This document shows, piece after piece, positions 1,634 through 20,218 of a stretch of DNA of 25,082 bases. The DNA is from a virus. The translations under genes and the position numbers were made by a program. Position 1 is the stretch's first letter. The number at the start of each line of letters is the position of its first letter. The notes below the pieces were generated by a model, which saw nothing but the letters and a program-made list of their open reading frames with translations, was not told the DNA's origin and ran no database searches. The stretch spans positions 1-25,082 of IMG/VR virus record IMGVR_UViG_3300044858_004576. One strand, given 5' to 3'.

Positions 1634-1641
1634 TATTTATA
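1634..1641 (-). promoter_or_regulatory. T4-type late promoter for the holin/spanin pair
   Basis: TATAAATACTAAT on the minus strand (octamer 1641-1634) matches the extended T4 late consensus TATAAATACTATT closely. The expected +1, 5 nt after the octamer, is 1628, the first G of the holin Shine-Dalgarno. The transcript would begin GGAGGTTATTATG. Confidence 0.8.
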
Positions 1642-3833: not shown

Positions 3834-3841
3834 TATACATA
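3834..3841 (+). promoter_or_regulatory. T4-type late promoter, leaderless start of the 762-aa gene
   Basis: TATACATA differs from TATAAATA at one base, and GACAT separates it from ATG at 3847. The 5-nt distance is the same as for the exact TATAAATA copies before 7020, 9138 and 14960. A TATATATA on the opposite strand (3819-3812) may serve the divergent gene. Confidence 0.6.
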
Positions 3842-3846
3842 GACAT

Positions 3847-6135
3847 ATGGAAAATAAAAAACTATTGACTGAAAAAGCTTCTCCTAATCCACCTGTGAAA
3901 ATAGGGAAATTACCACCAGAACTTTACAATCAAATGTCTCCCCAGCAGCAGAAGGATTATGATTTCCTCTATAGTGTATATGGGGATGAGCTTTATACCA
4001 ATAAAAATCAATATATTCCAAATTCGATCAAGCCAATAACTGATAAATTATTGAGAGATCGATCTTTTTTAAATGATCTTTTCTCGACACAAAATGAAAG
4101 AAACAGAAGCCGCGACGGACTTTCGTACAAAGAATTAGATAAGTCAATAATTGATAAGTGGCTACAGGACAAATTGAGCCAAGATGAAATGGTTCAACAA
4201 GGAGTTGTGGTCACGTCCCCAGAATCGGAAACCGAGTTTCAAACTGTGCCATATGAAATATTGAACCAAATGGAAAGAGATAGAAGATCAGCAATTGATA
4301 AAAGAAAAACTGATCTTTCTTCTGCCATTTCTGATCAGCAAAAAGAAATTGAAGCTGCATTACAAAGACAAACAGAATTTGAAGCAAAAATAAAAAGAAC
4401 TCAGGATATACTTTCTGGAAAATCTGAAAGCCAAGAACTACTTACTCGTACAACTAAAAAAGTTGTCGATGCCATGCAAGGTGTTTTAGATAAAGCACCT
4501 GTTGGTTTATTTGATCGTCCAGAATTTGATCGCCGTCAACCAGCAAAGCCGGACTATAATACTACAGACCCAGATTACACAGGAGAAACGGCTAGAAGAA
4601 ATATTCCTAGAACAGCGGCTATAGACTATGATGTCACTAGAAGTATCCCCGTCACTGCTGCTACAGATAATGCTACTAAAGGTAGGCAAGAAGATGAAGA
4701 TTGGGATGAACTTGGATTACCAGATTACGAAGGATTAGATCAAATTCAAGCAGAACTTCAAGCAAAATCAAACAGAAGAATTTTATACCCCACACAACCA
4801 TATGATATTCCAGCAGAATCTGATGATCCTGATTACACAGGAGAAACAGCTAGAAGAAATATTCCTAGAACAGCTGCTACAGATAATGATGCTACACAAG
4901 GCAGAAAAACCAGCACCAATAAATCAGGCAAACCAAGAGAACCAATTTATCCTGGTAGTCTTGGAGACATAATCGATGTTCTACAGGGAACTAAAGGATC
5001 TAGAGGAACACCAAGAGATAAAGATTGGTCAGAACAACTTTCCGACATATTAAGAGGTTCAAAAGGAACCCCAAATATCCCTATTACTTATGCCACAGAT
5101 GATGATGCTACTAAAGGTGGGCAAAGAGAAACTTTAGGTACATTACCTGATGATATGAAAGGCGGCTTTTTGGGACAAGTCAGAAAACAAAAAGCAATTC
5201 AAGCATTAACATACGAACCTTCTGAAGCAGAAATAGAAGCAGCATTGCCTGAATGGGCAAAGAAGAAAAAGACCCCAACAGCAAGAGAAAGAGTTTTTGG
5301 TGTTGGTGGAGATGTAACAACAACTGAATGGTATAAACAAAAACAAACATCTGATGCTCAAAGACAAAATGCACTTGATGATCTTCTAAGCGCACAAAAT
5401 AGATTAAAGGCATACCGCTTGGGGGATATAAAAAGCTTCGGCGCAGGAACAGAGCAAGAAAAATATCTTCAGCGCGCAGCACAAAGCTATGATATCAGCA
5501 ATCTAGCTGATGTTCCAGAAGATAAAAGAGTTCAAGCATATGGAAATATTTTCGCCAAAGCTGCAAGAGAATACTCTGAATCAGGAATTAACAAAGAACA
5601 GATATTCAATGATGTATTAGCAGGTAAATATTCCGATAGATTTACTGAAGGAATGTCAAAAGGATTTGAAAGAAATCCAGAAGCTTTTGCTAGAAATTAT
5701 GCAAATAGAATAGCAAGAGAGCAAATGAAAGAAAGAAAAGATGAATTCAAAAAATCTTTCAGGGGAACTCAATACGATCCATATGTTGGAGCAGATAAAA
5801 TAGCTAAACAATATGAGTATCAAGTTCCGAGTCAACCAGAAGTAGGTCCACCAGATCCCGGTTTTGATTTGGCTAAAAACTTACGCCGAGCTGAAAAAGC
5901 CAGATCAAATACTTTGGGTAGAGGACCTTCACAAGAAGAACAAATGTTTAATTTCTGGAACGATTCCTCAAACGCAAATTATCAAGCCGATATGTTACGA
6001 AGAAGATTAACAGCAGATGCTGAATTTGCGGGACAATTCCAAATGCAAACAGGTATCGCTGGAATCGATGCAGTAAAAATGTCAAATAGAGAATTAAACG
6101 ATATTCAAATGAAGTCTATGGGATTAGGTAGATAA
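3847..6135 (+). CDS. Large repeat-containing hypothetical protein, probable virion or internal head protein
   Basis: 762 aa from ATG at 3847. This start is chosen because a late promoter ends 5 nt upstream; the frame is open further 5', but that part holds the promoter. The N-terminus MENKKLLTEKASPNPP has an L-x-E motif at residues 7-9, like T4 capsid-targeting peptides. Residues about 145-200 are a charged coiled coil. Residues 241-426 hold degenerate repeats: DPDYTGETARRNIPRTAA at 241-258 and 327-344, plus related IPxTxATDxxATKG segments at 266-281 and 410-426. The C-terminal half is helical and rich in charge and Gln. No catalytic motif or membrane segment is seen. Its late promoter and place at the head of the plus-strand block suggest packaging in or on the particle. 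Function unknown. Confidence 0.85.
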   Translation: MENKKLLTEKASPNPPVKIGKLPPELYNQMSPQQQKDYDFLYSVYGDELYTNKNQYIPNSIKPITDKLLRDRSFLNDLFSTQNERNRSRDGLSYKELDKSIIDKWLQDKLSQDEMVQQGVVVTSPESETEFQTVPYEILNQMERDRRSAIDKRKTDLSSAISDQQKEIEAALQRQTEFEAKIKRTQDILSGKSESQELLTRTTKKVVDAMQGVLDKAPVGLFDRPEFDRRQPAKPDYNTTDPDYTGETARRNIPRTAAIDYDVTRSIPVTAATDNATKGRQEDEDWDELGLPDYEGLDQIQAELQAKSNRRILYPTQPYDIPAESDDPDYTGETARRNIPRTAATDNDATQGRKTSTNKSGKPREPIYPGSLGDIIDVLQGTKGSRGTPRDKDWSEQLSDILRGSKGTPNIPITYATDDDATKGGQRETLGTLPDDMKGGFLGQVRKQKAIQALTYEPSEAEIEAALPEWAKKKKTPTARERVFGVGGDVTTTEWYKQKQTSDAQRQNALDDLLSAQNRLKAYRLGDIKSFGAGTEQEKYLQRAAQSYDISNLADVPEDKRVQAYGNIFAKAAREYSESGINKEQIFNDVLAGKYSDRFTEGMSKGFERNPEAFARNYANRIAREQMKERKDEFKKSFRGTQYDPYVGADKIAKQYEYQVPSQPEVGPPDPGFDLAKNLRRAEKARSNTLGRGPSQEEQMFNFWNDSSNANYQADMLRRRLTADAEFAGQFQMQTGIAGIDAVKMSNRELNDIQMKSMGLGR
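4567..4620 (+). repeat. 54-nt coding repeat, copy 1
   Basis: Encodes DPDYTGETARRNIPRTAA. It matches copy 2 (4825-4878) at 50 of 54 positions, and all four differences are synonymous third-position changes. Confidence 0.9.
4825..4878 (+). repeat. 54-nt coding repeat, copy 2
   Basis: Same 18-residue peptide as copy 1, 258 nt downstream in the same frame. The flanks (AIDYDVT and ATDNDAT) are also related, so the original unit was longer. Confidence 0.9.
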
Positions 6136-6137
6136 TC

Positions 6138-6165
6138 TTGATTTATTTGTGATATTCTTTATAAT
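6138..6165 (+). promoter_or_regulatory. Sigma-70-type promoter for HNH and FmdB genes
   Basis: TTGATT (6138-6143), 16-nt spacer, TATAAT (6160-6165). Six bases (GAAAAG) separate the -10 from ATG at 6172, placing the predicted +1 on the start codon. Confidence 0.65.
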
Positions 6166-6171
6166 GAAAAG

Positions 6172-6699
6172 ATGAATAAACCTAAATATTCACGAATGAT
6201 TCGTAAAGTTCTTCTGCTAAATGCATCAGAGGAAATACTCAACATTGTTGATTGGATCAAGGCAGTTAAGTTATTGAATAACGGAAAAGCCTTGAATTAC
6301 AGCAATGAATTTTATGAAATAAAAACCTCTGATAATGTTGTCAAATTACCAAAGACAATTATTCTGAAAACATTTGTTAGGGTTCCATTCAGACGAATAC
6401 CTCCAACAAGAAAAAACATATTTCTGAGGGATCAATATACTTGCCAATATTGCAAAGTAGATCTTGATGATAAGAATGCCACATTGGATCATGTTGTACC
6501 TAAGTCAAAGGGCGGTGGGTCAACGTGGGAAAATCTAGTGACATCATGTCATGATTGCAATCTGAAGAAGGGCAATAAGCCTCTCAAAGATTGTGGTCTG
6601 CATCTGGAAAAGAAGCCAAAGCCACCCTTCGTAAATATTCTTGGTTTGAGGGAATACATATATCATAACCAAGAGTGGAAGAAATTTTTAAGGAATTAA
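6172..6699 (+). CDS. HNH endonuclease
   Basis: 175 aa. The C-terminal half has the canonical HNH core: C91-x2-C94 (CQYC), D106-H107 (LDHVVPKSKGGG), N121 (TWENLVTSC), C126-x2-C129 and NLKKGN. Two Cys pairs bind structural zinc, while the DH...N set forms the catalytic metal site. The N-terminal domain (about residues 10-70, VLLLNASEEILNIVDWIKAV) matches the arrangement of the common phage and bacterial HNH family of this length. It probably acts as a free-standing homing or DNA-processing nuclease. The ATG has no good Shine-Dalgarno but lies at the predicted +1 of its own promoter; Met9 is an alternative start. It sits between late genes, consistent with a mobile insertion, and fmdB follows 1 nt after its stop. 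Confidence 0.9.
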   Translation: MNKPKYSRMIRKVLLLNASEEILNIVDWIKAVKLLNNGKALNYSNEFYEIKTSDNVVKLPKTIILKTFVRVPFRRIPPTRKNIFLRDQYTCQYCKVDLDDKNATLDHVVPKSKGGGSTWENLVTSCHDCNLKKGNKPLKDCGLHLEKKPKPPFVNILGLREYIYHNQEWKKFLRN

Positions 6700-6700
6700 A

Positions 6701-7000
6701 ATGCCAAATTACGGATACGAATGCACAAAATGTGAACATTATTTTGAACAAGTTCATCCAATAGCCGAAAGAGATAAGCCAACAACTGAAAAGTGTCCTT
6801 CCTGTGGAAAGGCAAAGTCGGTCATTAAGAGTTGGAAGGGTGTAACTCCTGGATTGAGTGCAGACAACACCTTAACCCCAGACAAGGCTTCTGGTGGTAG
6901 ATGGACAGAACTCATGAATAGAATGAAGTCTAATCTACCAGAATATGCAAAAAAGAGACTTGACCGAGCTTCTGACATGAAGGGTACTAGATGGAAATAA
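6701..7000 (+). CDS. FmdB-type zinc-ribbon protein
   Basis: 99 aa, beginning MPNYGYECTKCEHYFEQ. Cys pairs C8-x2-C11 and C32-x2-C35 (KCPSCGK) form a rubredoxin-like zinc ribbon, as in the FmdB/CxxC regulatory family, whose members are small and start MPxYxYxC. The rest (residues 45-99) is a basic helical tail containing RWTELMNRMKSNLPEYAKKR, which may bind nucleic acid or a partner. AAGGA sits 6 to 7 nt upstream of the ATG. It follows the HNH gene by 1 nt and ends just before a late promoter. FmdB-like proteins are common in T4-like marine phages, but their role in infection is not known to me. Confidence 0.85.
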   Translation: MPNYGYECTKCEHYFEQVHPIAERDKPTTEKCPSCGKAKSVIKSWKGVTPGLSADNTLTPDKASGGRWTELMNRMKSNLPEYAKKRLDRASDMKGTRWK

Positions 7001-7006
7001 TCCATT

Positions 7007-7014
7007 TATAAATA
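7007..7014 (+). promoter_or_regulatory. T4-type late promoter, leaderless start at 7020
   Basis: Exact TATAAATA followed by C, as in the extended T4 late consensus. CAAGT (5 nt) then leads to ATG at 7020, which is the predicted +1. There is no Shine-Dalgarno. Confidence 0.85.
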
Positions 7015-7019
7015 CAAGT

Positions 7020-8054
7020 ATGAAGAAGCTAAATAAACTTTTCGAAAACGCAATTAAAAATAACGAACAGGAACTTCAAGAGATATTGGAGGAAATCGAA
7101 CAGGTTTCCGGTAAAATGTCTCTTGAAGAGAAATTTCACTTTATTGAGCTATATGAAGAAGACTTCAGAAACAAAAATCCAAAAGACAAAGACAAAAAAG
7201 AAGTCATCAAAAGAGGAAAATATCGTGTCGAAATCAGAACAGCGACCGGGACAAAGATAAGAACTGCTTCTTCACAAAAAGGTCTTCTTGATGTCATTCA
7301 TGGTGCAAAGAATTTTAGAGTCATTGATGATGGCAGCAATAAAGATATTACCAATCAAATCAAAAAGTTTATTGAAGCTAGAAATAAGCAAGGCAAATCT
7401 TTCAACAAAAAGAAGCCACTTCCAGAAAGCTATGATGTTAGAGAATTTACTCTTCGCATAGAGAAGTCAAAAATTTTAAATGAATCCCGTGTGCTCAAAG
7501 CATTATCTGGTGCAAAAGACGAAATCGGTGATCTAATTAGTGGTGCAGGCAGTTATCTTGGTAAAGGTGGGGTCGATCCTCAAATGGCAACTTTGACCAA
7601 GACTTTACCAAGCGATGTTGGTACAATGGCTCTAACTACCCCTGCAACACAGAGAGTTGTAACCAAAGCTATACCAACATCACCACAGCAAGATTATATC
7701 TACAAAGAAGTTCCAACATCAAAGGCATCTACTGCGGCTGCAACCTCACAAGCGGCTGATTATTCTGATGAAGGTTCCATGCTAAAGAATCCACTATTTC
7801 AGACTATAGCAGCGGCTCTTGGTTTAGGTGTTGGTGCAGCAACTTTGCCATACACATCATCAACAGGCGAAAAGACCACGACACAGACAGAACCTGCACC
7901 ACCAAGCGAAGATATTGATTCTTATGAAGAAGATCTAGTCAACGGTGCAAATATAATCAGAAAAATAATGATTTCAAAGGATAGCCAAAACTTTGGCCTA
8001 AATACTATAGAAACAAGCCCAATTCGTGATACGATTACTATAAATCAAATGTGA
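7020..8054 (+). CDS. Hypothetical late protein with L-x-E N-terminus
   Basis: 344 aa. The N-terminus MKKLNKLFENAIKNNEQELQ has an L-x-E motif at residues 7-9 and continues as an acidic helix. Residues about 60-110 (KYRVEIRTATGTKIRTASSQ and onward) look like a small folded beta domain. FTLRIEKSKILNESRVLKAL (about residues 141-160) is another basic helix with I-x-E and L-x-E sites. The remainder is Ala/Thr/Ser/Pro-rich with one Gly/Ala hydrophobic stretch (FQTIAAALGLGVGAATLP, residues 260-277). This suggests a prohead- or virion-associated protein that is targeted and trimmed by a T4 gp21-like protease, but the protease is not in this window. The stop TGA overlaps the next ATG by 1 nt. No family recognised. 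Confidence 0.85.
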   Translation: MKKLNKLFENAIKNNEQELQEILEEIEQVSGKMSLEEKFHFIELYEEDFRNKNPKDKDKKEVIKRGKYRVEIRTATGTKIRTASSQKGLLDVIHGAKNFRVIDDGSNKDITNQIKKFIEARNKQGKSFNKKKPLPESYDVREFTLRIEKSKILNESRVLKALSGAKDEIGDLISGAGSYLGKGGVDPQMATLTKTLPSDVGTMALTTPATQRVVTKAIPTSPQQDYIYKEVPTSKASTAAATSQAADYSDEGSMLKNPLFQTIAAALGLGVGAATLPYTSSTGEKTTTQTEPAPPSEDIDSYEEDLVNGANIIRKIMISKDSQNFGLNTIETSPIRDTITINQM

Positions 8055-8731
8055 TGCTTTCTGAATATATTAATACAAAAAAATTCATTCATCTTCCAAA
8101 ATTAAAAGAAGATCAAGTAGAACAAATAACAGAAAATGGCAAGCGTGTTTATGTTTGCCCCGGTGGTAAATTTCCTAGTGTTACTACTGTTGTTGGTTGG
8201 GAAAAGAATGAATTCTTTAAGAAATGGAGAAGGGATAACCCAAAGGAATCCCAAAGAGTTTGCCAAAGAGGAACTAATCTCCATAAACTTATTGAAACAT
8301 ATCTGCTAAATGAGCAAATAGAAAAAAATTCGTTGATGCCTGATCAATACGAATTGTTTCGTCAGGTTCAAGAAAAAATAGATGCAATCGACAATGTGCA
8401 TGCACTTGAATATCCTTTATGGGGTTCCAAGATTGGCCTTGCTGGTCGTGTTGACTGCGTGGCTGAGTATAAAGGAGTCAAAAGCATAATTGACTTTAAG
8501 GGAAGCACCAACAGAAAACGCGAAGAAGATATTGAGAACTATAAGCTTCAAGCCACCGCATATGCTCTTCTCTGGCAGGAAAGATTTGAAGAAAAAATTG
8601 AAAGTATAGTAATTCTCATTACTTGCGAAGATGGCTCTGTACAAGAGTTTATAGATAAACCGATCAATTATGTCGGAAAATTATTTGATGTGATCCAAAA
8701 ATACAAGGAAAAATTCAATGAGTCTAAGTGA
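8054..8731 (+). CDS. PD-(D/E)XK exonuclease, MGME1-like
   Basis: 225 aa from ATG at 8054 (TGATG junction with the previous gene; GTG at 8051 is an alternative). The motifs appear in the expected order: RGTNLHKLIE (about residues 72-81), E119 in HALEYPLW, LAGRVDCVAEY with D134, IIDFKGS with D147-x-K149, and the trailing QATAYALLW (Q166). This is the RecB/Cas4-type nuclease fold as in the mitochondrial genome maintenance exonuclease group often carried by T4-like marine phages. It would degrade or process single-stranded or double-stranded DNA ends using a two-metal site. A DNA nuclease placed within a late-type operon may serve packaging or host DNA turnover. A TATAAATC at 8039-8046 could be a weak late promoter, but its spacing to the start does not fit the rule seen elsewhere. 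Confidence 0.88.
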   Translation: MLSEYINTKKFIHLPKLKEDQVEQITENGKRVYVCPGGKFPSVTTVVGWEKNEFFKKWRRDNPKESQRVCQRGTNLHKLIETYLLNEQIEKNSLMPDQYELFRQVQEKIDAIDNVHALEYPLWGSKIGLAGRVDCVAEYKGVKSIIDFKGSTNRKREEDIENYKLQATAYALLWQERFEEKIESIVILITCEDGSVQEFIDKPINYVGKLFDVIQKYKEKFNESK

Positions 8732-9116
8732 AACTGATCAGGTAAACATAAGAAATACTAGATTATGGGTTAGAATGAATGAAGACACCAGAGCAGAATA
8801 CCATAGAAAAACATTTACTAAAAAGCATGGTGGATGTTTTGTCAAGGTGGATAAGCAATGGAAATGGATCAAAGAATCAAATACGGTTCCATATGAGCAC
8901 TCAGAAGAGTTCAAGAACTTTAAATTACCTGAACCTGTCATAAAAATAGACAAAAAAAGGTGCTTTATTTACACAAAAAATGATAAAGAGGTAGAGATCG
9001 AAAATCTTTACCAGTATTGCCAAGAAAACGATCTAAACAGGTCTGCCATGTATGATTTGGTCATAGGTAAGAGGAAGTCATACAAAGGGTTCAGATTTGT
9101 AAGAAAAGAGGAATAA
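8718..9116 (+). CDS. Homing-endonuclease-type DNA-binding protein without nuclease domain
   Basis: 132 aa. The C-terminus (about residues 90-130: EIENLYQYCQENDLNRSAM, then GKRKSYKGFRFV) matches the short helix-turn-helix repeat found at the ends of phage homing endonucleases (NUMOD/IENR type: F/Y-C-xx-N-xL, then G-K-xx-xxKGF). The N-terminus (TRLWVRMNEDTRAEYHRKTF) is basic and Trp-rich, with no GIY-YIG, HNH or LAGLIDADG signature visible. It may be a remnant of a homing nuclease or a stand-alone DNA-binding protein. AAGGA is about 8 nt before the ATG, and the gene overlaps the exonuclease by 14 nt. Confidence in the repeat is good; function is open. Confidence 0.75.
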   Translation: MSLSETDQVNIRNTRLWVRMNEDTRAEYHRKTFTKKHGGCFVKVDKQWKWIKESNTVPYEHSEEFKNFKLPEPVIKIDKKRCFIYTKNDKEVEIENLYQYCQENDLNRSAMYDLVIGKRKSYKGFRFVRKEE

Positions 9117-9124
9117 ACTGTCGT

Positions 9125-9132
9125 TATAAATA
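9125..9132 (+). promoter_or_regulatory. T4-type late promoter, leaderless start at 9138
   Basis: Exact TATAAATA followed by CTTTG (5 nt) and ATG at 9138. The first bases after the octamer (CT) also match the T4 extension. Confidence 0.85.
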
Positions 9133-9137
9133 CTTTG

Positions 9138-9368
9138 ATGAATGACAGTTGGTTCGATCTACCTACTTTTATAAAATTTGCCCGTAGCCAAGGAATGAGC
9201 CTTGATGAGGGTACATATCTCCGTAATGAAATTCTTCAATCAAGAGTGGAAAGAAAGTTCATTTCGGCAAGAAGAAAAAGAGAAGCTTTAGAATACAAGA
9301 GAAGAAGACGTATTTTAAAGGCTAAAAAGGGATCTAGGGCAGAAAGAAAAAATCTCTCAGCCAGATAA
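9138..9368 (+). CDS. Small basic protein, probable 5' part of a split larger gene
   Basis: 76 aa: MNDSWFDLPTFIKFARSQGM, then a helical, extremely basic second half (KREALEYKRRRRILKAKKGS). The late promoter fixes the ATG at 9138; a TTG three bases upstream is not needed. After the TAA at 9366-9368 the same frame stays open for 37 sense codons of similar basic, charged composition (KRDKIELRNDRKELLARQ) and runs directly into the 701-aa gene. This looks like one ancestral reading frame broken by a stop codon, or a readthrough arrangement. If it is a separate gene, it could be a DNA-binding or scaffold-type peptide. Confidence 0.65.
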   Translation: MNDSWFDLPTFIKFARSQGMSLDEGTYLRNEILQSRVERKFISARRKREALEYKRRRRILKAKKGSRAERKNLSAR

Positions 9369-9479
9369 AAAAGAGATAAAATAGAATTAAGAAACGACCG
9401 CAAAGAGTTGTTAGCTCGTCAGGCTCGGGAAAAAGGACAAGCTAAGGCTTTAGATATAGCTTCAAATCAGAGGACTTAT

Positions 9480-11585
9480 ATGGATGAAAGCATAGATGAT
9501 CAAATTCTAAATCTACTAAACGAAATCTCAAATCAAGCAGGCAAAACAAGAAAGAGAAGAGATAAGTTTCGTGGATTTGATGACTTTAGAAAAGACTTCC
9601 GCTTATCCATGGAAATCAAAAAAGACGAAAAGGACTCTGAAAAGAAAAGAAAGAGAGCAGAGCGCGATCTTCTTGAAGCTGAAGAGGAACAAGTAGAAGA
9701 AGGCGATCAGCAAGATCAGCCACAAGATCAAGAGCAACCAGCCAATCCAAACGATCCAATGTTCATTGCTCAACAGCACATGATGGCTATGAGCGTTTTT
9801 GTTCCGCTGAGATCGAAGCTAAATTACAAAGACACATTGTCAAAGCTATCTCTCGACAATCTAAAGAACTTTGGAATTTTGATTACTGATGAGGATGAGA
9901 CTGGTAGAAAAATATCTTTGAATGAACAGGTTGTAAGAGCAATGATTGTTCTGTCTAGAATAGCCGCAGGTGCTTCTGGGCAAGAATTGAATTACACATT
10001 GACATTCATGGGCGGTAAATTCTCGCGCTTTACCAAAGAAGCATTCTTAATTGCAAAGAAATTGCTTGAAAAGATAAATTCTGTTGATGGTATTTCATTG
10101 AACCATTTCTATGAAACTGGTGTGTTCAATATGGATGGTTCTCAGCCAACTGCAAGACTATTCACAAGTGACAAGAGAATAAATCCAATCACGAATCAGA
10201 ATAAAGTTTTCATAACTCCAAAAGATGAATCATACGATTCTCAGAAGATGGGAGTATTTAATCTGTTCAATACAATGGACTTGAGTGAAATGAACATTGT
10301 TCCTGAACTTGCTCAAGCCTTTGAGCAAATTGCATCGCAGTTTGGAAAAAACTTGTTCAATGCTACTCAGTATCAAGCAATAATGAACGATCCAAATATA
10401 AGCAATTCAGTAAAGAAAAATCTTGCTGAATTGGTTATGAAGAAGAAAGTTCTTGATGAGAATGGTATGGTAATACCACAAGCATCGCTTGATATATTCA
10501 AGCAACAAATGGAACAGTTGATTCCTCTTTTTATTCGTGATATCAATAAGAAGGGAAATCCAATAAACCTTCAAACAAAGAAGGCTTTACTTGGATCATA
10601 TCTTTCTGGACAAGATCAGAATCCAATTGCAAACGCAACACACATTGTTCGTGACAATGGTCTTTTTGCAATTGATGAAGATTTACTCAATGAACTAGCT
10701 GGTCTTTCAAAACTAAAGTTCAAGAGATTTAAGAAAAAGCTCTTTGAAGAAGAGATGCCAGAAGTCAATGAAAAGACTTTACTCAAAACTCTTATCTACA
10801 AAACATCAAATGTGATGAAAGACCCAATCAGGTTCTTATTGTCCTTGATGCTTGAGTCATATGATTTTGAAGCAATGCTTTGCCTAAATCCAATGTTGAA
10901 GGTAAAAGATCTTAAGAAGTTTGTTTCGAAGAACAATGTAATTAGAGTCAATGGAAAAGAAGTGGTTGTTCCTGTAGTCCGTAGCAGCGAAGAACAAATA
11001 GAATTCGATTCTCTTGGACACTACATGGACATGGCTGAAAGCATTCTAATAAATGAAGAAAGACCATTGGTAAAACTTCTTGAAAAGAAACTCATAAACA
11101 ACAAACAATTCATAAAGTTAAAGAAGATTAAGAAAAAGCTCAGTCCAGAATCAATAGTTGCAATGGCTCTTGCTTATACTTTTGATAATGCCCCCGAAAC
11201 AATTTCGGAAGAAAAAAGAGACCGTGATTATAAAAAAGAATACCGCGATTATCATGGAAAGCCTGAACAAATAAAGAGAAGAGCAAAAAGAGTAACCGCC
11301 AGAAGAAAACTTGCAAGACAAGGAAGAGTCAGAAAAGGCGATGGAAAAGATGTTGATCATAAGGATGGAAATCCAATGAACAACTCTGAAAAGAACCTAA
11401 GAGTTCAAGAAAAGACAACCAACAGAAGCAATAACAAAAAATACAAGGGTATGGCATATGAAGAGCATGGTGCTGGAGATGAAGGCACTAAACAATTGCT
11501 TATTAATTATCTACTAAATACTCCGGGGCAGGATATAAAAAGGATATTAGATGCAATTGGATATAAACACGCTGATGCCGAATAA
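9480..11585 (+). CDS. Large late protein with C-terminal HNH-like domain
   Basis: 701 aa from ATG at 9480. That start is favoured by AGAGGA ending 5 nt upstream. The frame is open back to 9369, with only TTG (9408) as another candidate there. Residues 30-90 are strongly charged (KRKRAERDLLEAEEEQVEE, then Gln/Asp repeats). The middle (about residues 100-570) is a helical globular region with no motif I recognise. The C-terminus (about residues 585-660) has YRDYHGKPEQIKRRAKRV, then KGDGKDVDHKDGNPMNN with D626-H627 and two Asn, and NLRVQEKTTNRS: an HNH-like module seen at the ends of many phage proteins. Whether it still cuts DNA is uncertain, since no Cys pairs are present. The late promoter at 9125 should drive it. 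Likely a virion, scaffold or packaging-related protein. Confidence 0.8.
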   Translation: MDESIDDQILNLLNEISNQAGKTRKRRDKFRGFDDFRKDFRLSMEIKKDEKDSEKKRKRAERDLLEAEEEQVEEGDQQDQPQDQEQPANPNDPMFIAQQHMMAMSVFVPLRSKLNYKDTLSKLSLDNLKNFGILITDEDETGRKISLNEQVVRAMIVLSRIAAGASGQELNYTLTFMGGKFSRFTKEAFLIAKKLLEKINSVDGISLNHFYETGVFNMDGSQPTARLFTSDKRINPITNQNKVFITPKDESYDSQKMGVFNLFNTMDLSEMNIVPELAQAFEQIASQFGKNLFNATQYQAIMNDPNISNSVKKNLAELVMKKKVLDENGMVIPQASLDIFKQQMEQLIPLFIRDINKKGNPINLQTKKALLGSYLSGQDQNPIANATHIVRDNGLFAIDEDLLNELAGLSKLKFKRFKKKLFEEEMPEVNEKTLLKTLIYKTSNVMKDPIRFLLSLMLESYDFEAMLCLNPMLKVKDLKKFVSKNNVIRVNGKEVVVPVVRSSEEQIEFDSLGHYMDMAESILINEERPLVKLLEKKLINNKQFIKLKKIKKKLSPESIVAMALAYTFDNAPETISEEKRDRDYKKEYRDYHGKPEQIKRRAKRVTARRKLARQGRVRKGDGKDVDHKDGNPMNNSEKNLRVQEKTTNRSNNKKYKGMAYEEHGAGDEGTKQLLINYLLNTPGQDIKRILDAIGYKHADAE
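11562..11569 (+). promoter_or_regulatory. T4-type late promoter inside the 3' end of the 701-aa gene
   Basis: TATAAACA (one mismatch to TATAAATA), then CGCTG (5 nt), then ATG at 11575. The spacing equals that of the exact copies and decides the start of the next gene. Confidence 0.6.
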
Positions 11586-12180
11586 CTATCTGGAATTAGG
11601 AACTGCCCTCGGCGCAACTGTAGTTGGAGTTGTAGTTTATTTTCTTAGATGGAAAAAGAATAAAAGAGAACGATATAACATTGAATATTGGAAAACTCAT
11701 AGTGATATTCATGAATCGTTAACAGAACTTCGACTAGAATGTGATGCAGCTAGAACACAATTAATTCAGTTTCATAATGGAGAATATTTCATTGATGGTA
11801 TTTCAATGAAAAAACTTTCAATGACTCATGAATCTCTTCATGGGGGCGTTAGCGCACAATATCCAAAATTAAGAGAAATCTTAATTTCAATGTTCATAGA
11901 ATATATACAAGCATTGTTATCTGAACCAATAACAATAAGAAAAATAGGACAGTTAAGACCTAGTATCTTTAAACAAATATTAGAGGCTGATAATGTTGAA
12001 GCTTATATGGCAACAACAATCAAAAATAAAGGTAAAATAACAGGATACATAATGGTTCAATGGTGTAATAAGGTTACATTCGAAACCATAAATATAGAAT
12101 CATGCAAAAAAGCCATGCAAAAAGCAAAAGATTCAATCGAAGTAAGCTTATTACAACAGAAAGCAACAGATGAAAAATAA
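11575..12180 (+). CDS. Membrane-anchored hypothetical protein, possibly GAF-like
   Basis: 201 aa from ATG at 11575. An upstream in-frame ATG (11551) has AAGGA 6 nt before it, but 11575 sits at the +1 of the late promoter and puts a clean N-terminal membrane helix (residues 6-22, LELGTALGATVVGVVVYFL) right at the start, followed by basic RWKKNKRER. Both starts could be used. The soluble part has ECDAARTQLIQFHNGEYF (about residues 53-70) and KLSMTHESLHGGVS, which recall GAF-like domains with a conserved FHNG seen in phage and bacterial proteins; this is from memory. It would face the cytoplasm on the inner membrane. It overlaps its neighbours by 11 nt on both sides. Function unknown. Confidence 0.7.
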   Translation: MPNNYLELGTALGATVVGVVVYFLRWKKNKRERYNIEYWKTHSDIHESLTELRLECDAARTQLIQFHNGEYFIDGISMKKLSMTHESLHGGVSAQYPKLREILISMFIEYIQALLSEPITIRKIGQLRPSIFKQILEADNVEAYMATTIKNKGKITGYIMVQWCNKVTFETINIESCKKAMQKAKDSIEVSLLQQKATDEK

Positions 12181-13573
12181 ACTTGATGAAGTCTATAAAG
12201 ATTCGGGTCTTGGCAAATGGTTTCATGATGAATCGGCCAATTCAGAACCCGGCTGGGACAGATACAACTCATCAGGTAAAAGAGTTGGCAAATGCGGAGA
12301 TGCAAAAGAAGGCTCTCCATATTCTGCATGTTTATCAAAGCAAAAGGCTGATAAACTAGGAAAAGAAGGAATCGCTTCCTTTGTCCAAAGAAAAAGAAAA
12401 GCACAAAAAAAATCTGGTTATGACGAAAAAGGCGAAGGCGGAAAAGGTAGAAAACCTGTTTATGTCGAGACCGGGGCAGCTAAAAAGAAGAACATGAGTG
12501 AAGCAACTATAATACCCGATGAATTAATGGATATAAATAAAAAGACGAAAGCCAATACCCCCGGTCAAAATATGGATATATCGAAAAGAAATAAAAAGTA
12601 CAAAACTCCCCCATGTGAAATGGATAAGAAGATCGTTGAAATGAAAACACCTGTTGGTGTTGTAATCAACTCGGTTGGGAAATTGGCAAGACAATTAAAT
12701 GTGGGTGATATTTACTACAAGAATGCAACCACTCCTGTAGAAGTACAAGAAGTCGCATACCAAAGAGATGGTAGCTTGAAGATCATTGTAGAATCAATGG
12801 GCCTTGACCGTGGCCTTGAAACCATAGAAGAATGCTCTGGCGATGAAATCGTAGGTGTGTTCTTTGAATCAGAAAACAAATATTTCGGAAAGAATTCTTG
12901 GGGCTTCCTTGAAGAAGCCGCTGTGCATAAGGGTAAGAAAGTAAAGTTAAATAAGCCAATGCGCGGCGATGTCAAGAAGTACAAAGTCTATGTCAAAAAC
13001 GACAAGGGAAATGTCGTAAAAGTCGAGTTTGGTGATCCAAACATGGAAATCAAGCGAGACAATCCAGCAAGAAGAAAAAACTTCCGTGCCAGACACAATT
13101 GCGATAATCCAGGTCCAGTATGGAAGGCCAGATACTGGGCATGCCGATTCTGGAGTAAAGAAAGTGTATCTTCTCTTCTCTCTGAAGAGGCTTTGGCTTA
13201 TGGCACTATCCTAGAAAAGAACGCTCCGAAGAATAAAAAGGCTTGGAGTAATTGTATTGCACAAGCAAAGAAAAAATTTGATGTTTATCCATCTGCATAT
13301 GCCAATGCTTGGGCTGCAAAATGCTACAAGAAAAAGGGCGGTCAATGGAGAAAGCTCTCGGAATATGTGGAAAATTGTGGCTGTGACTCCACCCCAGAAG
13401 ACACAGAAAATGTAAATGAATACCAATTTAAGATCAATAATGGTAAAAAAGTAGAAGAAACGCCAGTTGGTATGCTTGATCAAATGATAAATACTAAGAA
13501 GGTAAAAGATATGGAGCCTCAAAAAACGAGGATTAATTATCTAAAAGGAATATTTGAGGAATTCAAGAAATGA
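12170..13573 (+). CDS. Multidomain Cys- and Lys-rich late protein (DUF5872/DUF6321-like segments)
   Basis: 467 aa, beginning MKNKLDEVYKDSGLGKWFHD. Residues 28-81 (GWDRYNSSGKRVGKCGDAKE ... FVQRKRKAQKK) resemble the basic DUF5872-type module. Residues about 253-329 (VKKYKVYVKNDKGNVVKVEF, then FRARHNCDNPGP and WKARYWACRFWS) resemble a domain I recall as DUF6321 from phage structural proteins. Residues about 359-395 (SNCIAQAKKKFDVYPSAYAN ... KKKGGQW) form a third conserved basic motif. A middle domain (about residues 165-235) looks like a small beta barrel (VGDIYYKNATTPVEVQEVAY). The domain names are recalled, not searched. High Lys/Arg content fits a packaged DNA-associated protein. It overlaps the upstream gene by 11 nt and the next by 4 nt (ATGA). 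Confidence 0.75.
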   Translation: MKNKLDEVYKDSGLGKWFHDESANSEPGWDRYNSSGKRVGKCGDAKEGSPYSACLSKQKADKLGKEGIASFVQRKRKAQKKSGYDEKGEGGKGRKPVYVETGAAKKKNMSEATIIPDELMDINKKTKANTPGQNMDISKRNKKYKTPPCEMDKKIVEMKTPVGVVINSVGKLARQLNVGDIYYKNATTPVEVQEVAYQRDGSLKIIVESMGLDRGLETIEECSGDEIVGVFFESENKYFGKNSWGFLEEAAVHKGKKVKLNKPMRGDVKKYKVYVKNDKGNVVKVEFGDPNMEIKRDNPARRKNFRARHNCDNPGPVWKARYWACRFWSKESVSSLLSEEALAYGTILEKNAPKNKKAWSNCIAQAKKKFDVYPSAYANAWAAKCYKKKGGQWRKLSEYVENCGCDSTPEDTENVNEYQFKINNGKKVEETPVGMLDQMINTKKVKDMEPQKTRINYLKGIFEEFKK

Positions 13574-14055
13574 AATTTAAAGCTCTAACACAAAAACTAT
13601 TCGAAAACGAAGAAAACTTCTCTGGTGGTCTAGGTCAACCCGGAGAGCCAACCAGAACCTCAAGATCAGCCGTTTCTGATTTTGGTGCATTTCGAATTGA
13701 AAATGGAGAACAATTTGAAAGAATCAATTCTTTCCTAAGTGCCTTTGGTTCTAGGGATTATATCGATCCAAAGGGAGCAATCGCTCTTCTCAGAGCTAAA
13801 CTCAATCTAGTTGGACTTGACTTTAAATTCACAATGCAAACTCCACTAAATGTTGGAGAAAACGTTTTTCAAGTCACTAGATATGGTGGAACATTTGGTA
13901 CTACTCCAGACCACGATCTTCTAAAAGACGGATTCTTGGTCACCGATGGTATCAAGGAATTCAATGGTGGAATCGGTATGGAACTTCATGTAAATGTCTC
14001 TAAGAATAAGAGAAAACTTTATGTCCTTGATATCTTCCTTGCACCCGATGCATGA
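13570..14055 (+). CDS. Hypothetical protein with L-x-E N-terminus (161 aa)
   Basis: Begins MKFKALTQKLFENEENFSGG, with L-x-E at residues 10-12, very similar to the start of the 7020 gene (KLFEN). A Gly/Ser/Thr-rich linker (to about residue 35) is followed by a globular domain (residues 40-160) ending in strands FQVTRYGGTFGTT, MELHVNVSKNKRKLYVLDIF. The last strand pair suggests a small beta-rich virion protein. AGGA lies 9 nt before the ATG, which overlaps the previous stop by 4 nt. No family recognised. Confidence 0.8.
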   Translation: MKFKALTQKLFENEENFSGGLGQPGEPTRTSRSAVSDFGAFRIENGEQFERINSFLSAFGSRDYIDPKGAIALLRAKLNLVGLDFKFTMQTPLNVGENVFQVTRYGGTFGTTPDHDLLKDGFLVTDGIKEFNGGIGMELHVNVSKNKRKLYVLDIFLAPDA

Positions 14056-14431
14056 TAACGAAGTGCTCAATCAAATTAATTTTGAGCAATACGCAAAACT
14101 AAAATACAACAATCCATCTTGTGTTTCAAAGGATGAATTTTTTGACGATTTGAGAAGAATCAAATATATCAAACGATTGTTTGGAAAGTTTGAGTTTGAA
14201 AAAGAACTGAAGATAACTTTAATAAGAAACCATCTTATTATTTTAGGAAATGTCTTTGGAAAAGAGCCATCAGCAAAGATGCTCTTTTTTAAATTGGATA
14301 AAAAGTATCATTCATTCCTTAAAAGCTTTTTAGTTGATCTTGAGCTATTACCAAAATCGATTTCTGAAGTAAACATTTCGGCAATACCAACAGATCCTAG
14401 AATAGACAGGTTGCTAAAAACAAATGAGTAA
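14048..14431 (+). CDS. Conserved phage hypothetical protein (DUF7207-like)
   Basis: 127 aa from ATG at 14048 (MHDNEVLNQINFEQYAKLKY). The features NPSCVSKDEFFDDLRRIKYI (about residues 22-41) and IRNHLIILGNVFGKE followed by AKMLFFKLD match a small all-helical protein I recall as widely shared among T4-like and other large phages. Its function is unknown to me. The frame stays open further upstream, but that part is antisense to nothing and merely overlaps the previous gene; 14048 gives an 8-nt overlap like the next junction. No clear Shine-Dalgarno, so translation is probably coupled to the 161-aa gene. Confidence 0.8.
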   Translation: MHDNEVLNQINFEQYAKLKYNNPSCVSKDEFFDDLRRIKYIKRLFGKFEFEKELKITLIRNHLIILGNVFGKEPSAKMLFFKLDKKYHSFLKSFLVDLELLPKSISEVNISAIPTDPRIDRLLKTNE

Positions 14432-14951
14432 TTACATATCTGCAAGTTCTTATGTTCGTCCATTTACAATGTACAAATTCGTACAAATGATCAATTCTGA
14501 TTATACTTCACTTGATCTTTACCGAAGAGGCATAATCGATAATAATGGAAATTTTCTCATTCCCCCAGAAACAGCAATTGACGAAAAGAACGCAGATCCG
14601 CTTGAAGTTATAATAGCAAAAGTTAAATTTTACTTTGACATGGTTCCTGATCCCAGATTTCAGGCACAATATGGCAATTTTTTATCTCTTTTGAATTTAT
14701 TTCTTGCAGAATCAAAAAATTATAATCTAACGACTGAAGATGCTGTAAATCTTCTTGAAGAAACATTCATGAAGAAAAACATATCCATCAAAAAAATCTT
14801 GCAGGAAGAAGGCGAAGGTGGAGTTCCTGCAAATTCGGTTAGTGGAGGAGGCATTCAGGGTCTTGGATATCCTCCAGAAACAGATGAAATAGCTGTTCCT
14901 GCTAGAAACAAACTAACCATGCTTCGGAGAAAAAAGCGTAAAAAAATATAA
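14424..14951 (+). CDS. Conserved phage hypothetical protein (175 aa)
   Basis: Begins MSNYISASSYVRPFTMYKFV; from memory, related starts (ISASxxxRPFTMYxFV) occur in proteins of other large phages beside the preceding gene. Residues 1-110 look folded and helical (FVQMINSDYTSLDLYRRGII, then VIIAKVKFYFDMVPDPRFQ). Residues 130-155 are a Gly-rich linker and the end is basic (LTMLRRKKRKKI). The ATG overlaps the previous stop by 8 nt. The last codons contain the late promoter of the 881-aa gene. Function unknown. Confidence 0.78.
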   Translation: MSNYISASSYVRPFTMYKFVQMINSDYTSLDLYRRGIIDNNGNFLIPPETAIDEKNADPLEVIIAKVKFYFDMVPDPRFQAQYGNFLSLLNLFLAESKNYNLTTEDAVNLLEETFMKKNISIKKILQEEGEGGVPANSVSGGGIQGLGYPPETDEIAVPARNKLTMLRRKKRKKI

Positions 14952-14954
14952 ATA
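14947..14954 (+). promoter_or_regulatory. T4-type late promoter, leaderless start at 14960
   Basis: Exact TATAAATA, then AGAGT (5 nt), then ATG at 14960. The octamer overlaps the stop codon of the upstream gene (TAA at 14949-14951). Confidence 0.85.
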
Positions 14955-14959
14955 AGAGT

Positions 14960-17605
14960 ATGGACTATAAATCACATCGCTCTTTAATCGAATCGGCTAT
15001 AAAAGCAAAAAGAAATTCTTTACTCAATGAACAGGATGCTACTCCTGCGGCCAATACAGTAAAACCAAATCCCCTACTAGATCCAAGAGCTGCCAGAGAA
15101 ACACGCGAAACAGTTGCAAGAACACAGCAATTAGCTCAAGATCTACTCAGGGCGCAAGAACAAGTTGATTTTGAGAGAGATCTTGACAAATTGGGGCAAA
15201 ATCCAGCTAGACTAAATGTGGTTTATAAAACTGGATTAGGTCAACCGATAACTCCCGAAGACTTTTCAAGATTGTCGGATGAAGATAAAAAATCATTATC
15301 AGGTTCAATCAATATTGAAGGTGTTAAAACACCTTTACCAATGGATTATAAATCTCCATTCCAAATTCCTTCTTGGACAAGAGCAGAAAGTGCAATTATT
15401 GACAACTTAAAAGCTGAAGCTGCCGCAGCAGAAGAAATAGACCCCGATTATAAAGGAGAATGGACTGCAGCACAAATGGCTACTATAGCCCCGTTCATAA
15501 TGGCAGATCAAGTAAAGGGAAAAGGCGACATTCCAAAAGAACTAGAAATAGGAAAAGCTATGACCGGTCGTATGTCAAGTACAAATCCAAATAAAGATCC
15601 TGCACTAAAAGCATTACAAACAAATCCTGAATTTTTAGATACGGATACATATAAAGCGGTATTAAGAAAACTTACTGTGGTTAATCCAGATGCCATGGAT
15701 CCTGATTTTTTTAGACGAGCTTATGCCGCGATTGATGCTTCGGGTGTAGCTCAATCATCTAAAGATAGAGCAAAAGCTGTCGCTGAAAGAATGGAAAAAC
15801 GTCATTCAGCGGCAAGAGAAATGATTGTAGATGAGTTGTATGATCAATTCAAACCTACTGGTGCTGATTCGCTTGAAGCCGCTAGAAAAAAAGATCTTGG
15901 TGATCTGTTTGATAAAGTATTTGGTGATATAACATCAACTGCCAGAAATTATAGAGATATTTCGTTAGGCTCACCCATGGGCGGATCTCGTCCATATAGT
16001 CCATCTCCACAAGGGAGAGCGGCATTAACAACGGATCCATATGATCTAGTAAAAGAATATATTTCTAGTAAGAATTATGAATTAGACACACTCGGTGGGA
16101 TAGCTGGTTATAGGAGATATGATACCACTGATAAACTAATGTTAGACTTAACATCATGGAAAGCCGATCAAGCAGATTTGGATAAATTTATTGAATCTGG
16201 TGAACATTCCAATTTCTTTATGCAAGATGTACCAGATGCACAAGGCAAAATAAAAAGAGTTCCGGTTGTAAGAGAAGATCTAACGACAAGACAAGGAATA
16301 AGACAATTACAACAATTAATGTCTGGGTTTGATCCAGTAACAGATAAGCCAATGAGAGGATTTATAGAGCGTCCGGATGGAACAAAAATACAATTAACAG
16401 ATCTTCTAGATCCAACAAGAACACCAGATTCAAGACTTAGTACACCAATATCAGCTTTGGGAGTGGATGACAAAGAATTTTTAAAGGAATTTGGTAGTGT
16501 ACAAGATTTTCAAAATAGACTTAGCTTTGCTCCAAGTGTAGATCAAAAAACGAAGAATTTAGTTACTGACCAAATATTAAGAAGATTAAGTTCTAGTCAA
16601 ATGACTCCAGAACAAGCAGCAGAAAGATTAGCAGCAGAAAAAAGCGATGCGGCTCGGAAGGGAGTCAAAAAAGGGGTACAGGCTTTGAAACAATTTAGTT
16701 ATCCTATTGCCGTTGGTTACGGTGCTAAACTTGCAACCGATATTGCTTCTAGTTGGTTATCACAAGAATGGCAAAAGAGAATAAAGGATCAAGGAATACC
16801 TCAAGCTGTAGGATATGGTGCTGCTGGAGTTGCATCAGAATGGATGGATCGTTCTAGAGATCTACCTAAAGATTGGAAATCGTTAACATTGCGTGGATTT
16901 ATACCGTCCGCAGCTGGTGGTTATTTAATGGATAAATTTGCAAAATGGACTGAAACTGAAGATGCTTGGGAGCCTAGTCTTGTTGGATTAGCTGCAACTG
17001 GTGGTTCTCCGTATATTGCAAAGGGAGTAAAAGGAGCTGCATCTTGGTTACCAAACGCAATAAAAGCTACACGATTTGTACAAGGAGCTGGTGCTTTTGC
17101 TAGCAGAATTCCAATACTAAAAGTACCGGGTGTAGTAGCAGCAGCAACAGGATTTGGAGCAGAAGCTGCCGTGCGCGCAGGAATGGCTGCTTTTGGTGAA
17201 ACAACTGTGGATAAAAGTGTTAGAGAATTAATGTTATCTCCTGAATTCAAAGGATTTGAAAATTCTGCAGATGAAACGTTGATGAATACTCCAAGACAAT
17301 ATGGAAACAGAACATTAACTCCCAGACAAAAACTTACAACAACTGTTGATTTGTTTAGAGAAAAATTAAGAGAGGGATCAATAGATTTCAAACCATTCAA
17401 AGAGCGAGATCCAACTCGTTATAGTGATTTGCCTGATGTTTTAGAATCACAACAGGATAAAGCGAAAGCCTATAAAATATTCATAGAAAGTGAATTACAA
17501 AAGATGCGCGAAGAAATACAAAAGATGCGCGAAGAAAGAGATTCTACTAAACCGCGCCCTCGCTCTAGTGGAGGTGGAGCGGGTGGGCCATCAGCAGCGC
17601 AATAG
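14960..17605 (+). CDS. Very large late hypothetical protein, candidate internal or ejected virion protein
   Basis: 881 aa. The N-terminus MDYKSHRSLIESAIKAKRNS carries I/L-x-E sites (LIE at 9-11, LNE at 22-24), like a T4 capsid-targeting peptide. Residues 30-570 are helical and charged with Ala-rich stretches. Residues about 577-747 hold a series of Gly/Ala-rich hydrophobic segments (YPIAVGYGAKLATDIASSW, AVGYGAAGVASEW, LVGLAATGGSPYI, VPGVVAAATGFGAEAAVRAG) that could insert in or cross a membrane. The C-terminus has a duplicated heptad (KMREEIQKMREER) and a Gly/Ser/Pro tail. Size, late promoter and amphipathic segments suggest a packaged protein injected with DNA or lining a channel, but no named family fits. 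The stop abuts the convergent RuvC-like gene with no gap. Confidence 0.82.
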   Translation: MDYKSHRSLIESAIKAKRNSLLNEQDATPAANTVKPNPLLDPRAARETRETVARTQQLAQDLLRAQEQVDFERDLDKLGQNPARLNVVYKTGLGQPITPEDFSRLSDEDKKSLSGSINIEGVKTPLPMDYKSPFQIPSWTRAESAIIDNLKAEAAAAEEIDPDYKGEWTAAQMATIAPFIMADQVKGKGDIPKELEIGKAMTGRMSSTNPNKDPALKALQTNPEFLDTDTYKAVLRKLTVVNPDAMDPDFFRRAYAAIDASGVAQSSKDRAKAVAERMEKRHSAAREMIVDELYDQFKPTGADSLEAARKKDLGDLFDKVFGDITSTARNYRDISLGSPMGGSRPYSPSPQGRAALTTDPYDLVKEYISSKNYELDTLGGIAGYRRYDTTDKLMLDLTSWKADQADLDKFIESGEHSNFFMQDVPDAQGKIKRVPVVREDLTTRQGIRQLQQLMSGFDPVTDKPMRGFIERPDGTKIQLTDLLDPTRTPDSRLSTPISALGVDDKEFLKEFGSVQDFQNRLSFAPSVDQKTKNLVTDQILRRLSSSQMTPEQAAERLAAEKSDAARKGVKKGVQALKQFSYPIAVGYGAKLATDIASSWLSQEWQKRIKDQGIPQAVGYGAAGVASEWMDRSRDLPKDWKSLTLRGFIPSAAGGYLMDKFAKWTETEDAWEPSLVGLAATGGSPYIAKGVKGAASWLPNAIKATRFVQGAGAFASRIPILKVPGVVAAATGFGAEAAVRAGMAAFGETTVDKSVRELMLSPEFKGFENSADETLMNTPRQYGNRTLTPRQKLTTTVDLFREKLREGSIDFKPFKERDPTRYSDLPDVLESQQDKAKAYKIFIESELQKMREEIQKMREERDSTKPRPRSSGGGAGGPSAAQ
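17497..17537 (+). repeat. 21-nt tandem duplication in coding sequence
   Basis: ACAAAAGATGCGCGAAGAAA occurs at 17497-17516 and again at 17518-17537 with a period of 21 nt. It encodes two turns of the heptad QKMREEI/QKMREER in the C-terminal coiled coil. Confidence 0.85.
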
Positions 17606-18231: not shown

Positions 18232-20166
18232 TTACTTAGTCAGATCAACAATCTCACAGGCTCCTGCGGTGCAACTAAAAGTCTGGGTTCCAGTAGTGTT
18301 ATCTTCCTTCTCGTAGTTGGATAGTTCTGACCAATCAACATCAGTAGGAAGTTTAGCCAGTAGTGCTTCATACTGATCCTTGGTGCAGTCTTCGTATGGA
18401 GCCTGACGGTAGGTGTGATCTGAGTGTGGAAGGAATGAAATACCGCTGATCTCATCAAAGTGAGCATAGACCCATGCTCCCACTTCCATCCATTCTTCAT
18501 CCCGAACAGTTACAGTGATGCTTGGCTTATGTTCGCACCAGTATTGCTGGTAGGTCAACCAAAGCTCCAGTTGTTCGATTGCGGTCATGTCGTTACGAGT
18601 TACGCAATGGTCTGGGGACTTCATGGGGAATGAGAAAACCATTGTGTGGTTGGGCTTCATTACGCATGGCTCGGCAACGAATCCCTTGTCGATCATGAAC
18701 TGACAGATTGGGTCCTTACGGTCTGCACGAACACGACGAATGTAATAGTTGGCATGACGAGCATGAATACCCGAAGCAGCATCAACCAACTGACTGACCG
18801 TTCCGCTTGGCTTTACGCAAGTGATGGCAGCAGATTCATTGATCTTTAACTTATGTGCATATTCCTTATTGGTTTCAATTGCAACATGACGAAGATGATC
18901 AAGAACATCCGCAAGATCTACACCACCAGCACGACCGTTGGTGATTTCATTATCCATGATACCAGTCAAAGATACACCAAGTAGACGCTCTTCTTCACAA
19001 TTCTTCTTCCAGTCGCTTGAGAGATAACGGAAGTTGGTAAGAGTAGACTGGAATGTACCCAGGATGGTCGCAAGACGAACCTTACGAGCAAGTGTATCTG
19101 GAGTATCGTCTGCACGAATAACGACTTCAGATAGGTTGCAGAACTCACGGTCGCGTAGAATGATCTCTGAGCAAGGATTGGTTCCGAAGTCGTGGTTTGG
19201 ATCACGACGATCTCCAAGACGCTTGATCTGATTCTTTGCAGCCTTACGGTTGAAGATACCACGCTCTCCGCTCTTGCTCTTGTAGAGTGAAACCCATTCG
19301 TCCATGAAGGTAGCCATGTCTGGCTTTTCCTTGTAGCAGGCTGAGTTGTTTGCTAGTGCGCGTTGAGCGTTGTTCTCCCACCATGCACCACTCTTTGCCA
19401 AACGCATACGATCATCGTCAAGGGACGAGAGTGAGATAAGAGCAGAGCGACGAACTCCACCAACAACTACGATCTCAGCAATTTTGCATACGATATCGTG
19501 GCATTCGACCGTAGTGAGCTTTCTACCAGCCGCCTTGCGGAAGGTTTCAATGGTAAATCTGAAAAGGTCTTCCAAAGGTTCAGGTCCCGATGCTCGTCCA
19601 CCAAAGGTTTTAAGTCTCGCTCCAGCAGGACGAATTTTTGAAACGTCCCATTGCGGAATCTGACCACCAATGAGTAGTGAGAATAGCTCTCGGTAGGCTT
19701 TAGCCCAACCAATCTTAGAATCTTCGACCACGATAATAGTATCGCTATTTGTAAATTCTTCAGCAATAGTAGGAAGCTTTTCAACGAATTCCCTTTCGAC
19801 AGAAAAACCGACACCTGTTCCGCACATTAAGATATATACAATTTCGTCAAATGAGCGAACCTTGCTCGTTGAAACATAGGAGCAGTTATACCCTGCTACA
19901 TGGTCGCGTTCTAGTGCCTCGCCTGCGGTCATGAGGCAACGCATGGATGGCATGACTTCCAAATCCAATACCGCTGTTTCAAGTTCCTTGCGAAGATCCT
20001 TTGAAAGCTTGTAGTTGCAATTGTTCTTCAGATGTTCCTCAAAGAAATCAAAATAGCGTTTTACAGTCTCTTCCCACGATTCACGACGCTTTTCGTCTTC
20101 GATCCAACGAGCGTAGCGAGAGGAATGAATAAAACTTTGGTACGGGGTGGGTAGTGACATTAACAT
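18232..20166 (-). CDS. nrdJ: Class II (adenosylcobalamin-dependent) ribonucleotide reductase
   Basis: 644 aa. It reduces ribonucleotides to deoxyribonucleotides using a cobalamin-generated thiyl radical, in the cytoplasm. Key residues match the monomeric Lactobacillus-type enzyme: C95 (GYNCSYV), NPCSE at 330-334 with C332 and E334, radical Cys C343 (FCNLSEV) exactly 11 residues after C332, and a C-terminal redox pair C632/C637 spaced by 5. MCGTGVGFS and GGVRRSALIS are also typical. No small subunit is needed. The host must supply B12. ATG at 20166 and ATG at 20160 are both possible; AAGGA lies about 4 or 10 nt upstream. It has its own host-type promoter and a strong terminator, so it can be expressed apart from the thyX-primase unit. 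Confidence 0.95.
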   Translation of the reverse strand: MLMSLPTPYQSFIHSSRYARWIEDEKRRESWEETVKRYFDFFEEHLKNNCNYKLSKDLRKELETAVLDLEVMPSMRCLMTAGEALERDHVAGYNCSYVSTSKVRSFDEIVYILMCGTGVGFSVEREFVEKLPTIAEEFTNSDTIIVVEDSKIGWAKAYRELFSLLIGGQIPQWDVSKIRPAGARLKTFGGRASGPEPLEDLFRFTIETFRKAAGRKLTTVECHDIVCKIAEIVVVGGVRRSALISLSSLDDDRMRLAKSGAWWENNAQRALANNSACYKEKPDMATFMDEWVSLYKSKSGERGIFNRKAAKNQIKRLGDRRDPNHDFGTNPCSEIILRDREFCNLSEVVIRADDTPDTLARKVRLATILGTFQSTLTNFRYLSSDWKKNCEEERLLGVSLTGIMDNEITNGRAGGVDLADVLDHLRHVAIETNKEYAHKLKINESAAITCVKPSGTVSQLVDAASGIHARHANYYIRRVRADRKDPICQFMIDKGFVAEPCVMKPNHTMVFSFPMKSPDHCVTRNDMTAIEQLELWLTYQQYWCEHKPSITVTVRDEEWMEVGAWVYAHFDEISGISFLPHSDHTYRQAPYEDCTKDQYEALLAKLPTDVDWSELSNYEKEDNTTGTQTFSCTAGACEIVDLTK

Positions 20167-20187
20167 ATTTCCTTTTTTTGTTGGGGC

Positions 20188-20215
20188 ATTCTAGCCGTGT
20201 TGGATATTTAGTCAA
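20188..20215 (-). promoter_or_regulatory. Sigma-70-type promoter of nrdJ
   Basis: TTGACT (20215-20210), 16-nt spacer, TAGAAT (20193-20188). The predicted start near 20181 gives a leader of about 15 nt with AAGGAAAT. The promoter occupies the short gap after the thyX stop. Confidence 0.75.
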
Positions 20216-20218
20216 GGA

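Follow-up and report, generated by a model that had tools for sequence, protein, structure and literature searches.

The window, i.e. the whole stretch of 25,082 nt analysed here, is a 25-kb IMG/VR virus fragment, the minus strand of which carries T4-like replication genes, including those for a gp41-like helicase and a gp61-like primase. These replication genes are adjoined on the plus strand by a block of genes most of which are unnamed. Comparisons were made with the relative G001 (IMGVR_UViG_3300011113_000396, 113,452 b), which was scanned over its whole sequence and the helicase of which is 92% identical to that of the window. Homologues of gp55 (57730-58386), by which T4 recognises its late promoters, and of the T4 coactivator gp33 (20052-20279) are encoded in G001, being found in this relative and not in the window, which as a fragment would not be expected to contain them. 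Names of virion genes also come from G001, window genes A, B, C and E being without an assigned product; moreover, the related-locus search with gene B as query returned no IMG/VR relatives, and protein E had no match among cultured phages. It should be added that the window encodes at 18232-20166 (minus strand) a B12-dependent ribonucleotide reductase in a T4-like setting, closest (~65%) to those of marine podoviruses, e.g. HMO-2011, and roseophages. The features considered are as follows:

1634..1641, minus strand: octamer TATAAATA of a contrasting, leadered gene, with CTAATGGAGGTTATT before ATG 1618 and the Shine-Dalgarno sequence GGAGG
3834..3841, plus strand: site A, octamer TATACATA, 5 nt before ATG 3847
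3847..6135, plus strand: gene A, 762 aa, predicted to be leaderless
7007..7014, plus strand: site B, octamer TATAAATA, 5 nt before ATG 7020; kept in G001, L006 and L007
7020..8054, plus strand: gene B, 344 aa, predicted to be leaderless; N-terminus conserved from residue 1
9125..9132, plus strand: site C, octamer TATAAATA, 5 nt before ATG 9138; conserved
9138..11585, plus strand: gene C, predicted to be leaderless; interrupted by an in-frame TAA at 9366-9368
11551..12180, plus strand: gene starting at ATG 11551, with an ordinary Shine-Dalgarno sequence, AAGGA, 11 nt upstream
11562..11569, plus strand: site D, TATAAACA, within ORF 11551-12180; rejected
14947..14954, plus strand: site E, octamer TATAAATA, 5 nt before ATG 14960; kept in L004 and G001
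14960..17605, plus strand: gene E, 881 aa, predicted to be leaderless

The first-pass annotation had listed sites A to E as five late promoters ending 5 nt before an ATG, with no Shine-Dalgarno (SD) sequence at the corresponding starts. All five octamer-N5-ATG strings were indeed present with the 5-nt gap, and no SD-like word was seen at positions -20..-4 of starts A, B, C, D and E. The exact string TATAAATA-N5-ATG occurs three times in the window and nowhere else in it, always on the coding (plus) strand, while the reversed-pattern control of this string gave zero matches in the window. Spacing is given below as d, the number of nucleotides between octamer and ATG, with starts defined by rule as ATGs opening at least 60 codons. 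Under this rule, NATAAATA was seen in the window three times at d=5 vs ~0.03 expected (P ~4e-6, an estimate which assumes that ATGs are independent).

At sites 7007, 9125 and 14947 the octamer and the 5-nt distance are unchanged in relatives that are 80-87% identical there (L004, L006, L007 and G001), and the spacer itself differs in G001 in one of the five bases at 7007 and in two of the five at 14947. Proteins B, C and E match a relative from residue 1; furthermore, the first 30 codons from 9138 show six synonymous differences and no replacements. As for site A, the G001 orthologue of gene A has TATACATA with a 4-nt gap to ATG, and the same variant stands before the tail-tube gene in the G001 clade and recurs before G001 late genes. 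These comparisons support sites 3834, 7007, 9125 and 14947 as candidate promoters of leaderless late genes. The fifth one, TATAAACA at 11562, was discarded as a promoter, being a chance match inside ORF 11551-12180, the ATG of which (11551) is served by a conserved AAGGA. Its counterpart in G001 reads CATAAACA, and ATAAACA has no general d=5 excess in G001.

Two further observations concern individual genes of the window. The TAA at 9366-9368 divides gene C into ORFs 9138-9368 and 9408-11585 with the frame unchanged; the G001 orthologue is one ORF of 816 aa, and the interruption may reflect a genuine nonsense mutation or faulty assembly. The minus-strand gene 1184-1641 has a minimal leader, TATAAATA-CTAATGGAGGTTATT-ATG, with its GGAGG at the very 5' end of the predicted message; its homologue in G001 has d=15 and the SD-like AGGAG.

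The excess of the 5-nt spacing that the first-pass annotation expected of a genome-wide scan was found in G001 and several other phages and was absent in T4 and marine cyanophages. In G001, NATAAATA stands at d=4, 5 or 6 before ten ORFs vs 0.42 expected, and at d=5 alone before six vs 0.14; the variant NATACATA precedes four additional ORFs at d=4-5. Counts at d=5 were likewise elevated in the pelagiphages HTVC008M (9 vs 0.16 expected) and Mosig (6 vs 0.18) and in uncultivated G015 (6 vs 0.13), with weak peaks in Melnitz (3 vs 0.16) and Rhizobium phage RHph_I1_18 (3 vs 0.11). The probability of such counts arising by chance in the larger genomes ranged from 1e-8 to 1e-13, with related contigs being non-independent samples. 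The same scan gave a d=5 count of zero in T4, Syn9, AG345L05, phiM12, DLP6, Cr30 and P10VF, and a single d=5 match, located inside an ORF, in S-PM2; the octamer in T4 and cyanophages is mostly found 10-39 nt upstream of ATG. Host class was considered as an explanation and rejected, the alphaproteobacterial phages phiM12, Cr30 and P10VF being without the peak.

In G001, short spacing is seen, among others, at the genes for the tail sheath, tail tube and baseplate tube cap, each with d=4, and at that for the head-tail adaptor Ad2, with d=5. The tail-tube proteins of HTVC008M and Mosig are only 44% identical, and the G001 protein is even less similar to them. In the window's clade, short spacing is the commonest arrangement among recognisable late promoters. 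A clade-restricted histogram of spacings is sparse, duplicates having been collapsed in it. The distance is mostly 5 nt, as had been proposed, but ranges from 4 to 6 and is often 4 in G001. Nor is the arrangement a universal late rule: leadered late genes with a distant octamer and an SD coexist in the same genomes, e.g. in G001 at d=14-15, where the SD lies near the predicted 5' end. The first-pass interpretation is therefore partly supported: its core stands, but one site was misjudged and the distance was taken too rigidly.

Octamers were also found back to back between divergent genes in G001 (6325-6356) and G015 (13930-13959), each ATG being 5 nt downstream; these are predicted to be compact bidirectional leaderless promoters. 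Apart from these, in Rhizobium phage vB_RleM_P10VF (L317-L324) ATAAACA occurs nine times 18-19 nt before ORF ATGs and ATAAATA is absent, which suggests that this phage uses a different late-promoter octamer.

The T4 late octamer spans positions -13 to -6 (PMC2988020), and therefore an ATG five bases past the octamer begins at +1. Leadered promoters of HTVC008M, Mosig and Melnitz (n=46) have A in 74% and a purine in 87% of cases at the sixth base after the octamer, the respective values for T4 leadered promoters (n=30) being 53% and 77%. The leaderless class of the marine phages has the same preferences for G at -5, T at -4 and T at -1 as the leadered one, with the A of ATG at the sixth base. 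On these sequence data, the sites are very probably T4-type late promoters with transcription beginning at the A of ATG, and would give rise to leaderless late messages. In the proposed mechanism, the gp55-type promoter would consist of the -10 octamer alone, lacking a -35 element, and from it the host RNA polymerase with phage gp55/gp33 would initiate mRNA on the A of the start codon late in infection; the ribosome would then recognise the 5'-terminal AUG directly, without an SD. Several G001 sites at d=4 count against this, as transcription would there have to begin one base nearer to the octamer than is normal in T4, and so do the coexisting leadered late genes and the fact that the window itself contributes four supported sites only. 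Phage-encoded ribosomal protein S21 was considered as a shared helper; it is present in Melnitz and HTVC008M and, because it is missing from G001 and the other genomes compared, it was dismissed as a common factor.

Two further lines of evidence concern translation and the upstream boundary of the messages. In the pooled genomes, SD-like tetramers precede 3 of the 43 starts with leaderless spacing vs 60 of the 85 leadered starts (P ~1e-12). Moreover, in six lineages (the G001 clade; the L229 group; the L247/L252/L262 group; L249; HTVC008M, at 75559; and Mosig) the octamer, 4-5 nt and ATG come immediately after a strong hairpin that bears a T-run, the gene being that for the tail tube in most cases; the HTVC008M gene concerned is the one after the capsid gene. 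With a terminator before the promoter, upstream transcripts should stop, and the message would have to start at or next to ATG, there being no room for a leader. The tail-tube string TATAAATA-N5-ATG of Melnitz was left out of these lineages because the annotated start is a later one, at d=22 and with the SD-like AAGGG. As regards the sheath gene, the G001 orthologue has d=4 without an SD, and in the other genomes, where an octamer was found, d is 28-61, most with an SD. The sheath match in G001 is to the middle one of three tandem, mutually related ORFs (L090, 40356-47291; 1460, 377 and ~470 aa), a single sheath gene being present in other T4-like phages.

The same evidence bears on the possibility that the octamers are real late promoters, but that longer transcripts reading through from upstream are the main source of the proteins, the short spacing reflecting compact packing. 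Sites B, C and E do lie close behind same-strand upstream genes, and read-through into them is possible; however, such messages would have no SD to use before these starts, a terminator directly precedes the promoter in the six lineages, and compact packing by itself would give no sharp 5-nt peak. We therefore regard this explanation as unlikely.

Because start-codon regions are AT-rich, the core ATAAATA was compared with its 20 anagrams as a control for composition. At d=5 ATAAATA was ahead by 9 to 1 in HTVC008M, by 6 to 1 in G001 and by 3 to 1 in the window, with no enrichment in T4 or cyanophages. In HTVC008M, G001, Mosig, G015 and the window, ATAAATA at d=5 ranked first or equal first among all 7-mers scanned at d=4/5, and SD words led in T4, Melnitz, DLP6, Cr30 and P10VF. 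Some bacteria use AT-rich upstream regions without an SD, and the octamer near ATG might accordingly be read as an AT-rich, SD-independent ribosome-binding element with no promoter function. This is highly improbable, given that the anagrams, identical in composition, show no enrichment, that these genomes also carry the same octamer 12-45 nt before genes with an SD, and that its variants and flanking preferences match those of leadered promoters. Chance or a misassigned start codon, which does account for site D with its SD-bearing start at 11551, is hardly credible elsewhere, proteins B, C and E aligning from residue 1 with no convincing SD-preceded start downstream, and the chance probabilities given above being what they are.

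Placement of T4-type late promoters on the start codon is thus the favoured reading, and it points to a real variant of T4-type late expression, apparently an unreported one: the literature searched yielded no account of leaderless late genes for the T4 superfamily, which is weak evidence of novelty, most subscription papers lying outside its scope. Leaderless translation is usually seen as a minor route outside some bacterial groups and archaea. Here, T4 late transcription appears to have been re-spaced, so that in cultured pelagiphages and uncultivated phages promoter position would set the start codon of virion genes. A bolder version, which we hold only tentatively and consider rather doubtful, is that an aquatic T4-like branch has rebuilt late expression, with most late promoters, including those of sheath and tube, defining the start codon and late infection relying on leaderless initiation; host translation would then possibly be modified in such a way that 5'-terminal AUGs gain an advantage over host messages that depend on an SD. 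The proposal makes predictions testable in existing phage-host pairs and offers a comparative handle in the sheath gene, leadered in T4 and cyanophages and predicted to be leaderless in G001. It also allows gene calls and promoter annotations of these phages to be corrected.

Among known systems, the T4 late promoters, dependent on gp55/gp33/gp45, share with the present sites the TATAAATA octamer with a variable first base, the gp55/gp33 homologues (as found in G001) and the virion genes downstream; in contrast, the T4 octamer stands 12-36 nt before ATG with zero cases at d=4-6, whereas here ATG occupies the predicted +1. Late promoters of T4-like cyanophages (NATAAATA; Syn9, S-PM2; PMC2984593) have the same octamer with a free first base and are associated with related replication and virion genes, but their spacing is mostly 10-39 nt and they lack a d=4-6 class, the one S-PM2 match lying inside an ORF. 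In TA-led leaderless bacterial genes, a -10-like signal ~10 bp upstream of the start codon serves as their mark (PMC3160421), and in Sinorhizobium meliloti 171 leaderless transcription start sites were mapped, all starting with AUG (PMC3616915). Both differ from the present case in concerning host genes with sigma70-like promoters, as opposed to a phage late octamer and virion genes. Leaderless late mRNAs are said to be made by phiKZ-type phages as well. A leaderless mRNA of lambda is cited in PMC3160421, and the paper on AR9 calls phage transcripts "often leaderless", AR9's own leaders being 26-491 nt (PMC5312081). The cases mentioned in these two papers have in common with the present one a phage mRNA without a 5' leader, and differ from it in not belonging to T4-type late transcription.
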